A stretch of 64,000 nucleotides of DNA from Deltaproteobacteria bacterium (GTDB lineage: Bacteria; Myxococcota_A; UBA796; GCA-2862545): positions 62,001-126,000 of the forward strand of contig SBGP01000098.1 in assembly GCA_006226595.1 (NCBI GenBank), read 5' to 3'. The notes under the pieces were generated by a model, which ran no database searches, was not told the DNA's origin, and worked only from the letters and a program-made list of their open reading frames with translations. The translations under genes were made by a program, and so were the position numbers. This document shows, one piece after another, positions 11,369 to 14,831 of this stretch (positions are counted from its first letter, which is position 1; every line of letters starts with the position of its first letter).

Positions 11369-12409
11369 TCAGGAACGGACGGTCGCGCCCACCCAATCCC
11401 GTCCATCGTGCAATCGGACGAGGTTCGGCCGCTGCATGCGTCCCAGGCCACAGACGCGCACCGCCCCGAGAGCCCGAACGGCGGACGCCGCCCCGGTCGA
11501 TTCCGTCCCCACAGTGGACAACCAGGGGGCCCAGGGTCGGAGGACCTCCATCAGGGCCTCGGCGTCCGGAACATGGAACAGAGCCGGGTGTCTCGGCAGT
11601 ACCGAAGGTTCAAATAGTCGAAGTGGCAACGCATGAACGGCACCACGTCCGGCGGGCACACAGAACCCCGTGACCGTAGCCAGTGCTCCGCGGCTCCGCG
11701 CCTGTGCCCACTCCCCCGCGCCGACCTCGCCGAGAGGCCAGCGAGCCTCGGCCCGCACCATCGCGTCGGCCAGGGCCTCGGCGGCTTCCTCCAGCGGAAG
11801 CGGTGTGAACACCGCCACCGGCGACAGACAGCCTCGGCCGTCGTGAAGGGCCAGATCCGCGGCCACGGCACCCCACGGGTCGCGGAAGCCCTCGGGAACC
11901 ACGGGGTCGACGCTGGCCTCACCCGTCACCCACGCCACCGAGAAGCGATGTCCGTGCGCATCGAACGTCTGGTGCGGCGTGAGCGAGGCGCGCAGCTGCG
12001 CCATCGTGTGGTCCGCCCCCATGGCAACGACGAGCTGGCTGTGCTCGACCGCGCGCCGATCTGGCGACGCCGTGAGCGGAAGGCCCGCGGTGCGGGCGGC
12101 TTCGACGAAGGCGTTCGCAGTCTTCTCCGCCCCCGCGGCGTACTTGAGGGTCACGGCCGTGCCGCGTCCGAGCAACACCGCGCACCACTCGATGGGCGCC
12201 GTGAACACGGTGCGGGCCGCGACGAAGGTCGCCGAGCGGTAGGGCTCGCCGGCACGCGCCGCTGCCGATGCAAGCGCCTCCGGCGTGAGCGCATCGAGCG
12301 CGACCGTCCACGCCTCCCGCGCCCCCTCGGCGGAGAGTGTCGTTCCGAGTGTGGAGGCATCCACGCTGCGCAAGGCGTCGCGCCAGGCCTGCACCTTGTC
12401 CCAGCTCAT
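11369..12409 (-). CDS. LuxC-like acyl-CoA/acyl-enzyme reductase
   Basis: A 346-residue protein resembling the LuxC acyl reductase family, a branch of the aldehyde dehydrogenase fold that reduces an acyl thioester to an aldehyde with NADPH. The candidate catalytic cysteine is Cys194 in DGRGCLSPVAVF, flanked as in aldehyde dehydrogenases. Residues 85-130 form the probable nucleotide-binding lobe. It is shorter than bioluminescence LuxC (about 480 residues), mainly at the N-terminus. Start ATG at 12409 overlaps the stop of the LuxE-like gene (ATGA). It is the third gene of a coupled aminotransferase-LuxE-LuxC operon. No luciferase genes are nearby, so light production is unlikely. The aldehyde is probably the substrate of the aminotransferase. 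Confidence 0.8.
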   Translation of the reverse strand: MSWDKVQAWRDALRSVDASTLGTTLSAEGAREAWTVALDALTPEALASAAARAGEPYRSATFVAARTVFTAPIEWCAVLLGRGTAVTLKYAAGAEKTANAFVEAARTAGLPLTASPDRRAVEHSQLVVAMGADHTMAQLRASLTPHQTFDAHGHRFSVAWVTGEASVDPVVPEGFRDPWGAVAADLALHDGRGCLSPVAVFTPLPLEEAAEALADAMVRAEARWPLGEVGAGEWAQARSRGALATVTGFCVPAGRGAVHALPLRLFEPSVLPRHPALFHVPDAEALMEVLRPWAPWLSTVGTESTGAASAVRALGAVRVCGLGRMQRPNLVRLHDGRDWVGATVRS

Positions 12410-13428
12410 CGCCCACCCCGCGCAGCCCATGCCTCTTCGGCCGTGAGGGAGCACCCGCGCGCGGGACTCCCCGGAAGCCGCCCGAACAGCGTGACGGCGC
12501 CATCTTCGCCGACGATGCCCTCGTCGAGGGTCTCGATGCCCACCGACGAGTCCAGGTTGCACAGATCGTAGAACCGCAGCTGCCCGGGCTCCCCGTCGGG
12601 CCTGGGCACGCCGGTCTCGGGATCGACGGCCACCGCGCGCAGCCAGGGCGGGGGCCGGTACGCGCTCTCCGGCGTGCCCCACAGCTGCGACGACAACTCG
12701 GTCATGCCGTACTCGGTGACGAGGTGGGTCGGGGCCAGGCAGCGCACGGTCTCGCGATACAGCTCTTCCCCTTCGAGGCGGTGCACCCGCCCCTTGAACC
12801 CGCCGGTGACCATGAGCACGGAACCCTCGGGCAGCGCGGCGGGACTCGCGTCGAGCCACTCGGCGAGCGCGAACGCGGTGGTGCCGACGAACGCCGGCCC
12901 GTCGAGGCTACGCATGCGTACCGCGAGCCCCTCCAGGTCCAGACCGGTCGCTGTCTGGTGCCAGGTCGCCTGACCTCCCCACGCCTCGAACAGCGCGACC
13001 ATGTGGGACAGCGACGAGTCCGGGTGCGTCGCCGGGTCGACGAGCAGCCCGACCACCTCCGCGGGCGTGGCCGGCAGGCAGGCCTCGGCCCAGCCGAGGG
13101 CACCGAGGTTGTACAGCTCCGCGCTGCGCATGCGATGCACGCCGCGTCCCCCGCCCGTGGTCCCGCTCGTTCGAAACACCGGACCTTCGGTGGCGGTGCC
13201 GACCGGCAGGTGCTTGAACAGCGCCACGGGCACCGCGGGGATGTCCTGCCACCGGGAGGGCATCGGGCCAGAGAGCGCACGCACCAGCGGGTCGCTGAGC
13301 GCCTGCCACTCGTGAATCGCGAGGGCGAGCGCGCCGAAGGACTCGGAGGGCTGCGCCCCTTCGAGGCTCGCGCGGACGAAGTCGCGGATGCGATCCGCGA
13401 GCAGCGCGGCGGGACCCTGCCAGCTCAC
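12406..13428 (-). CDS. LuxE-like acyl-activating enzyme (acyl-protein synthetase)
   Basis: A 340-residue member of the LuxE branch of the acyl-adenylating superfamily, which activates a carboxylic acid with ATP and holds it as an acyl thioester. The phosphate-binding motif is FRTSGTTGGGRG (85-96), and VTEYGMTELSS (238-248) matches the adenylate-contact motif YGxTE. The block PAVPVALFKHL (64-74) is typical of LuxE. The start GTG at 13428 overlaps the aminotransferase stop (GTGA) and its stop overlaps the LuxC-like start. In known pairs LuxE hands its acyl group directly to LuxC. The chain length or nature of the acid is not evident. Confidence 0.85.
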   Translation of the reverse strand: MSWQGPAALLADRIRDFVRASLEGAQPSESFGALALAIHEWQALSDPLVRALSGPMPSRWQDIPAVPVALFKHLPVGTATEGPVFRTSGTTGGGRGVHRMRSAELYNLGALGWAEACLPATPAEVVGLLVDPATHPDSSLSHMVALFEAWGGQATWHQTATGLDLEGLAVRMRSLDGPAFVGTTAFALAEWLDASPAALPEGSVLMVTGGFKGRVHRLEGEELYRETVRCLAPTHLVTEYGMTELSSQLWGTPESAYRPPPWLRAVAVDPETGVPRPDGEPGQLRFYDLCNLDSSVGIETLDEGIVGEDGAVTLFGRLPGSPARGCSLTAEEAWAARGGR

Positions 13429-14831
13429 GCGCACACCTCGACCAGCGCGTCGACGAACGCGGTCCACTGCGCCTCGGTGACGACGGCCGGAGGCGTGAGC
13501 CCGAGGGAGGTCGCGCCGGCGGGGAGCGTGATGAACCCACGCTGCAGCAGGGCTTCGCTCGTCGCCAGGCCATCGCGCCCGACCTCGACGCCGAGCATCA
13601 GGCCGCGCCCACGGGTGTCGAAGCCGCGCTCGGCAAGCAGCGCACGCACGAAACGGCTCGACTGCGCTGCCTTCGCCGGAATGTCCCCGTCGACGAGCGC
13701 CCGCAGCGAGGCGGCGGCGGCCGCACAGCTCACCGGGTGCCCGAGGAAGGTCTGCGTGTGCAGCGCTTCGCCGGTACTCGCGCCCCACGCCGCCATCACC
13801 GCTTCGGTGCCGAGGCAGGCCGACAGCGGGAAACCTCCGCCAAGCGCCTTGCCGACACACAGGAGGTCGGGCACGACGCCGAGGGCCTCACCCGCCCACC
13901 ACTCGCCGGTTCGACCGAGGCCGCACTGAATCTCGTCGAAAGCGAGCAACGCGCCGTGGGCGTGCGTCTCCTCGTCGATCATCTGCAGCCAGCCCGCGGG
14001 CGGCGCGTGCATGCCCCCGCGTCCCTGTACCGGCTCGGCGAGCACGAGTGCGACGTCTCCGGGAGCCAGAGCGGCGCGCAGCTCCTCGCGGGTGCAACCC
14101 CACGGCAGGTGGCGCACCCGGTCCGCGAGCAGACCCGCGAACGGCTCCGTGAACGCGTGCTTGTAGGCCTGGAGCGGGAGCACCCCGGTCGCGAGGCCAT
14201 GGTACGCGCGGTCGAAGGCGACGACGTGCGTGCGGCCGGTAGCGAGCACCGCGGTCTTCACCGCCGCATCCACCGCGTCGCTGCCCGAGCTGCCGAGCAG
14301 GGTCACCCGCAGCTCGCCTGGCGCGAGCTCGCCGAGTGCTTCGAGCAGCCGGATGCGAGCGGGGTCCGGCGAGGTGTCGCCCATCGCATGGACGAGCTGG
14401 TTCGCCTGGGCGGCGGCAGCCGCGACCACCGAGGGCGGGCGGTGACCGAGCAGCGCGACGCCGTAGCCAGCGATCAGGTCGACGAACACGTTGCCATCGA
14501 CGTCCTGCACGTTGGCGCCGACGGCTTCCTGCCACACCACCGGGTCCCGCTCGGACGCACCGAGCACGGCCGCACGACGCGCACGACGCGCCGTGACCGC
14601 GGGACACTCGAACCGCGCGAGACGGTCGGTCCACGCCCGCGACGCAGGGCCGGGGACGGGCGTGAGGAGCTGGGGAAGGTCGGTGCCGTGGATGGGAGCC
14701 TCCGACGGCGCCTCTATCTCGTTGCCTCGGACGCCGTGGGCGCATCGGCGGATCCCGTGAACCGGGACAGTCCCCCCGACAGCCGGCGACAATCCGGTGT
14801 CAGCTCGACGACCGGCCTGCGAAGCCGACAA
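13425..14831 (-). CDS. Class III PLP-dependent aminotransferase
   Basis: An omega-aminotransferase related to 4-aminobutyrate and ornithine aminotransferases. The PLP Asp lies in LLAFDEIQCGLGRTGEW, and the Schiff-base Lys in LCVGKALGGGFPLSA. LLGSSGSDAVDAAVKTA binds the PLP phosphate. The family-like region begins at about TDLPQLLTPVPG, so translation may start later than the ATG at 14831; no good in-frame ATG or GTG was found nearer. First gene of the coupled operon. Class III enzymes accept aldehydes and amines without an alpha-carboxylate, which fits amination of the aldehyde made by the LuxE/LuxC pair. Confidence 0.88.
   Translation of the reverse strand: MSASQAGRRADTGLSPAVGGTVPVHGIRRCAHGVRGNEIEAPSEAPIHGTDLPQLLTPVPGPASRAWTDRLARFECPAVTARRARRAAVLGASERDPVVWQEAVGANVQDVDGNVFVDLIAGYGVALLGHRPPSVVAAAAAQANQLVHAMGDTSPDPARIRLLEALGELAPGELRVTLLGSSGSDAVDAAVKTAVLATGRTHVVAFDRAYHGLATGVLPLQAYKHAFTEPFAGLLADRVRHLPWGCTREELRAALAPGDVALVLAEPVQGRGGMHAPPAGWLQMIDEETHAHGALLAFDEIQCGLGRTGEWWAGEALGVVPDLLCVGKALGGGFPLSACLGTEAVMAAWGASTGEALHTQTFLGHPVSCAAAAASLRALVDGDIPAKAAQSSRFVRALLAERGFDTRGRGLMLGVEVGRDGLATSEALLQRGFITLPAGATSLGLTPPAVVTEAQWTAFVDALVEVCA

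Follow-up and report, generated by a model that had tools for sequence, protein, structure and literature searches.

A widespread aminotransferase-LuxE-LuxC operon as a likely nitrile-free route from 7-carboxy-7-deazaguanine to the queuosine precursor preQ1

The window analysed here is a stretch of 64,000 nucleotides from the genome of a Deltaproteobacteria bacterium (assembly GCA_006226595.1, contig SBGP01000098.1, our contig C94, positions 62001-126000; genome 7.2 Mb, ~70% GC). Our subject is a three-gene operon within it, encoding a class III pyridoxal phosphate (PLP)-dependent aminotransferase (AT), a LuxE homologue and a LuxC homologue, for which we propose a role in queuosine biosynthesis. 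As a reading made earlier from the sequence alone (hereafter, the sequence-only reading) had described, the three genes share a strand (here the minus strand), lie between window positions 11369 and 14831 and are joined by GTGA and ATGA overlaps. The same reading saw no luciferase gene and set bioluminescence aside; in agreement with this, neither luxA/luxB nor luxD, the marks of a lux operon, is found among the annotated neighbours of the trio. The LuxC of the operon is the single good LuxC match in this genome. The genes, their junctions and the residues discussed below are as follows.

13425..14693 (-), class III PLP aminotransferase of the LuxE-associated subfamily (PF00202, clade support; start predicted)
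12406..13428 (-), LuxE homologue, acyl-adenylating, acyl-protein synthetase type (profile match to 7xc6_E)
11369..12409 (-), LuxC homologue, acyl-thioester reductase family, aldehyde dehydrogenase fold, short form (PF05893, AlphaFold2 model)
13425..13428 (-), GTGA overlap of the AT stop codon with the LuxE GTG start (sequence)
12406..12409 (-), ATGA overlap of the LuxE stop codon with the LuxC ATG start (sequence)
14193..14195 (-), AT Leu167, in the place of the canonical YHG-R substrate-carboxylate Arg (Leu in 90/93, Met or Val in 3/93)
14019..14021 (-), AT Arg225, in the place of the canonical switch Glu of QG-E-GG (Arg in 93/93)
13848..13850 (-), AT Lys282 codon, the PLP lysine (invariant, 93/93)
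13500..13502 (-), AT position 398 (Gly), in the place of the canonical C-terminal Arg (Arg in 0/93)
12451..12453 (-), LuxE Cys326 codon (RGCSL), putative acyl-accepting Cys near the C-terminus (invariant in 42 sequences; aligned to residue 364 of 7xc6_E)
11828..11830 (-), LuxC Cys194 codon, catalytic nucleophile (GRGCLSP; invariant in 38 sequences; aligned to 7xc6_A)

The LuxC protein matches PF05893 (E=7.4e-17, 61.8 bits against a cut-off of 21), and its AlphaFold2 model, with a predicted local distance difference test score (pLDDT) of 96.5, has 7xc6_A as the top fold match. Cys194, which the sequence-only reading had singled out, does occupy the nucleophile position of the family: it aligns with the corresponding segment of Photobacterium 7xc6_A (DvalyDgrGClSP / DICFYDQQACFST, E=2.6e-27), in addition to its invariance among the homologues. 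The LuxE protein is matched by NF052244 (E=5.5e-6) and, by profile (profile A2), by Photobacterium LuxE (7xc6_E, E=1.7e-26), and its ANL-type core motifs SGTTG and YGMTEL show little or no variation across 42 sequences. It falls below the NCBIfam equivalog cut-off for long-chain fatty acid LuxE (25.6 bits against 550), a score by which it is a homologue of that enzyme and is not predicted to share its function. Characterised LuxE and LuxC proteins act on fatty acids. At two loci LuxE and LuxC are naturally fused in a single frame (L051:5728-8100 and L095:6554-9709, the latter the same as L015), which fits a direct handover of the acyl group from one protein to the other. Both families also have other contexts, such as flagellar glycosylation islands (PMC7874193, PMC4875605).

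The AT matches PF00202 (E=3.5e-78, 263.5 bits) and is a distant relative of ArgD and LysJ. Its closest solved relatives are the E. coli putrescine aminotransferase (4uox) and the γ-aminobutyrate (GABA) and acetylornithine ATs, which have K/R, E and R where the trio AT has Leu, Arg and a residue other than Arg. Most of the other class III ATs compared read R/E/R at these three sites, whereas the LuxE-associated ATs read L(M,V)/R/non-R, and the carboxylate-binding R-E-R set of the canonical glutamate/GABA/ornithine type is absent from all 93 of them. A tree of 71 ATs places the LuxE-associated proteins in one group (support 99/97). Within the class III fold, losing the arginines that hold the substrate carboxylate suits an aldehyde substrate that has no carboxylate, and the relocated Arg may serve to bind the amino donor.

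A LuxE scan of GTDB species genomes returned 62 loci. Most of them preserve the order AT-LuxE-LuxC, and 32/45 share the 4-bp overlap between AT and LuxE; retention of both order and overlap indicates that the arrangement is more than chance. LuxE is present in 166/189 Myxococcota genomes, and among 40 Myxococcota loci sampled across many families the AT adjoins LuxE in 34, usually with LuxC next, while the flanking genes differ between families and the trio stays constant. The genes are, then, kept together in relatives, as the sequence-only reading would have it. The three proteins have correlated pairwise distances (r 0.82-0.90, 64 loci), as expected from joint descent. Where AT and LuxE lie apart (eight Myxococcota genomes), the AT is found elsewhere in the same genome, and unlinked members of the AT subfamily also occur in several LuxE-bearing genomes of Acidobacteria, Gemmatimonadota and Verrucomicrobia. 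Conversely, both the AT subfamily (best 322 bits, vs 448-654) and a true LuxC are missing from 14 LuxE-negative Myxococcota genomes, save for a 45-residue piece of LuxC where a contig of G069 ends. The 61 Gemmatimonadota-class genomes divide into 26 with LuxE and AT (one of them counted on a truncated AT), three with LuxE alone, two with the AT alone and 30 with neither (p about 1e-11).

The conserved catalytic residues, the phylum-wide linkage and the co-occurrence strongly support the carboxylate-to-amine chemistry that the sequence-only reading had assigned to the trio. Its guess at the substrate, a fatty acid or a natural product, is probably wrong, as the queuosine genes found next to the trio in other genomes, or missing from the genomes that carry it, point elsewhere. 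The QueE product 7-carboxy-7-deazaguanine (CDG) is a carboxylic acid, which QueC and QueF convert, via the nitrile preQ0, to the primary amine 7-aminomethyl-7-deazaguanine (preQ1) (PMC5372724). CDG being the acid and preQ1 the matching amine, LuxE, LuxC and the AT could achieve this conversion overall by way of an aldehyde.

QueE or QueD adjoins members of the trio in eight loci, all from phyla other than that of the window. Four Gemmatimonadota loci (L081, L083, L088, L093) have QueE immediately before LuxE-LuxC, and two Verrucomicrobia-type genomes (L171, L173) have it immediately before the unlinked AT; in these same two genomes QueD (TIGR03367, above cut-off) comes immediately after LuxC (L090, L085). 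The two halves of the set thus each have their own link to queuosine genes. One Myxococcota locus (L119) has QueE at a distance of 3 kb from the trio. More generally, QueE of trio genomes is found beside LuxE, the AT or QueD, or alone, and in three trio-less genomes (L256-L258) it is found beside QueC. No preQ1 riboswitch was found near the trio at the Rfam gathering threshold.

Before the search, the prediction was fixed that trio genomes would lack QueC and QueF and would have QueE and Tgt. In a single search of 45 chosen genomes with one concatenated four-row profile (QueC/QueF/Tgt/QueE), trio genomes had QueE in 22/22 and Tgt in 22/22, QueC in 1/22 and QueF in 2/22 (one of them weak), so that 19/22 had neither QueC nor QueF. 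Trio-less genomes had Tgt in 21/21, QueC in 19/21 and QueF in 17/21, both being absent in 0-1/21 (G009, with a weak QueC). The difference in joint absence gives p values of 2e-9 to 4e-8, which kinship among the genomes makes a guide only, and the contrast holds in Myxococcota and Gemmatimonadota taken separately. Twelve trio genomes consist of a single contig each, and the absence of QueC and QueF is therefore not an assembly gap. In the genome of the window, QueE is on contig C87, a QueA-Tgt pair on C81 and a second Tgt on C25, and QueF is absent. Two further genomes, with an incomplete trio (G251, locus L229, and G225), likewise have Tgt and QueE and lack QueC and QueF; they may possess yet another variant enzyme, or one of their genes may have been overlooked. 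Partial trios also occur in G206 and G248.

Taken with the QueE/QueD neighbours, the loss of QueC and QueF suggests CDG as the substrate, preQ1 as the product and housekeeping tRNA modification as the purpose, and we consider it very likely that the trio makes preQ1 from CDG without a nitrile, in place of QueC and QueF. We infer the substrate, the order of steps, the acyl transfer from LuxE to LuxC, the cofactor and the amino donor. LuxE would adenylate the carboxylate of CDG with ATP to an acyl-AMP and load the acyl group on its Cys326, from which it would pass to Cys194 of LuxC; LuxC would reduce the thioester with NADPH to 7-formyl-7-deazaguanine, and the AT, with neither canonical carboxylate-binding Arg, would transaminate this aldehyde to preQ1, the base that Tgt would then insert into tRNA. 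We also consider it very likely that this amounts to a second, nitrile-independent preQ1 route across Myxococcota, Gemmatimonadota, Acidobacteriota and Verrucomicrobiota, carried out by kin of the fatty acid reductase of bioluminescence together with a purpose-built AT clade, and displacing QueC and QueF wholesale.

The proposed route shares with the QueC-QueF route its start (CDG) and end (preQ1), the use of ATP and NADPH, and the supply of Tgt and QueA; the two are nearly mutually exclusive in the scored genomes. They differ in that QueC and QueF proceed through a nitrile and a nitrile reductase, whereas the trio would use a thioester, an aldehyde and PLP transamination, with enzymes of other families. 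The LuxC-LuxE fatty acid reductase of luminous bacteria (7xc6) consists of homologous proteins with the same two cysteines; the trio differs from it in its short LuxC, in the AT that stands instead of luxD, luxA and luxB, and in its substrate, probably a deazapurine acid. We found no description of a nitrile-free preQ1 route by LuxE/LuxC relatives in the literature searched, which covered few subscription papers. Acid-aldehyde-amine cascades and the queuosine pathway are known, and the nitrile-free route to preQ1 would be the new element. If correct, it closes the gap between CDG and preQ1 in many bacteria that have QueE and Tgt and lack QueC and QueF, which a presence/absence survey of known queuosine genes would call incomplete or salvaging. 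It would also mean a housekeeping role for homologues of LuxE and LuxC, establish a new AT subfamily and provide a carboxylate-to-amine cascade for a heteroaromatic acid.

Several observations weigh against this proposal. The substrates of characterised LuxE and LuxC are fatty acids, and biochemically the conversion of CDG to preQ1 by the trio is a proposal drawn from sequence. No Que gene was seen adjoining the trio in the taxonomic order of the window, the window itself included, QueD was noted in some loci only, and the QueC/QueF/Tgt/QueE search used one concatenated profile for all four families in a chosen set of genomes. The trio is incomplete in some genomes, with the AT and no LuxE in G251 and G248, and LuxE and no AT in G196, G206 and G225, as well as in G190 and G192. 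Among trio genomes, QueF is present in G197 and, in divergent form, in G030, both of which lack QueC. At one locus (L092) LuxE-LuxC is paired with a canonical AT. Finally, the one trio genome with QueC is that of the window itself (G000), which has two copies, in a separate FolE2-QueE-QueC cluster on contig C41.

The C41 cluster (L239:6716-9970; 84.7-88.0 kb) comprises QueC, a FolE2 with a C-terminal helix-turn-helix domain, QueE and the second QueC, adjoined by an Exo_endo_phos protein and with no QueF; its QueE is of another type (TIGR04508, Cx14CxxC). It presumably serves another preQ0 product, perhaps a preQ0-based DNA modification or a metabolite. The L092 locus (L092:2167-9091), where LuxE-LuxC is followed by the canonical AT (class III) and by 2-oxoacid:ferredoxin oxidoreductase subunits, was set aside; it is possibly a different LuxE/LuxC pathway.

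Of the alternatives, conversion of a fatty or other hydrophobic free acid to a primary amine destined for a lipid or a natural product, in the manner of TamA/TamH, fares best, and we regard it as improbable. It would fit the known LuxE/LuxC substrates, an AT without carboxylate arginines (as an aliphatic aldehyde would require), the patatin-like gene that precedes QueE-LuxE-LuxC in some Gemmatimonadota, and the precedent of PtTamA/PtTamH, which convert fatty acids to amines (PMC9594044). PtTamA/PtTamH (tambjamine) and PigE (prodigiosin) likewise go from acid to aldehyde to amine with a terminal class III AT; unlike the trio, they have an acyl chain bound to an acyl carrier protein, a reductase of another family, fused domains and a place in secondary metabolism (PMC9594044). 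No biosynthetic cluster or recurrent lipid gene surrounds the trio, whose neighbours are unrelated housekeeping genes that vary with the family (Mpl, trpS, sigma-70, the SUF operon, an M19 dipeptidase), and its distribution is housekeeping-like and mostly single-copy. A fatty acid substrate would, moreover, leave the QueE/QueD operons and the loss of QueC and QueF unexplained.

Less probable again, and quite unlikely, is that the trio makes some other product of CDG (a deazaguanine derivative, formyl or aminomethyl, destined for DNA or for signalling, for example) and that queuosine precursors are salvaged. The QueE/QueD operons would tie the trio to CDG in this case too, and salvage of such precursors is known (PMC5372724), but the presence of Tgt in every trio genome and an anticorrelation exactly with QueC and QueF, the CDG-to-preQ1 enzymes, argue against this reading. 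That the trio stands in for an amino-acid step of like chemistry (ArgB/C/D, lysine, beta-alanine) can practically be dismissed: the AT is a distant relative of ArgD/LysJ, and ArgB-ArgC-ArgD and LysZ-LysY-LysJ likewise activate, reduce and transaminate with a class III AT, but they do so by acyl phosphate chemistry and with a canonical AT, and the genome of the window has argC beside a canonical ArgD-type AT (C40), plus PanD, which disfavours a replacement of arginine or beta-alanine synthesis.

A β-ketoacyl synthase (KAS) III, encoded beside LuxE in five loci of one family (L061, L063, L066, L071, L086), was considered as a fourth partner of the trio and rejected, not being retained in most families and having lpx/fab housekeeping genes as its other neighbours. 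Counting further loci with a KAS III-like protein near the AT (L142, L144, L145, L146), the association recurs in two distant families and probably belongs to lipid housekeeping. Among the metagenome-assembled genome records, L047, L056, L069, L085 and L086 are titled Klebsiella pneumoniae, Akkermansia muciniphila or Bifidobacterium breve, titles that look wrong for their content.

The start codon of the AT is itself unusual. The open reading frame (13425-14831) is open up to a TTG at 14831, and relatives begin their AT with an ATG at the position where the genome of the window reads GGAGG-n5-ATC (ATC at 14693-14691):

14699..14703 (-), GGAGG Shine-Dalgarno-like motif, 5 nt before the ATC codon (sequence; same layout in L033/L151)

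The sister species (L033, at about 4726, and L151) has the same GGAGG-ATC and no in-frame ATG, GTG or TTG before the ATC, while the other close relatives compared have ATG at this position. Judged from this alignment, the AT probably starts at the ATC at 14693 and not at the TTG at 14831. The segment 14691-14703 may represent a conserved non-canonical start codon (AUC), perhaps of regulatory significance.

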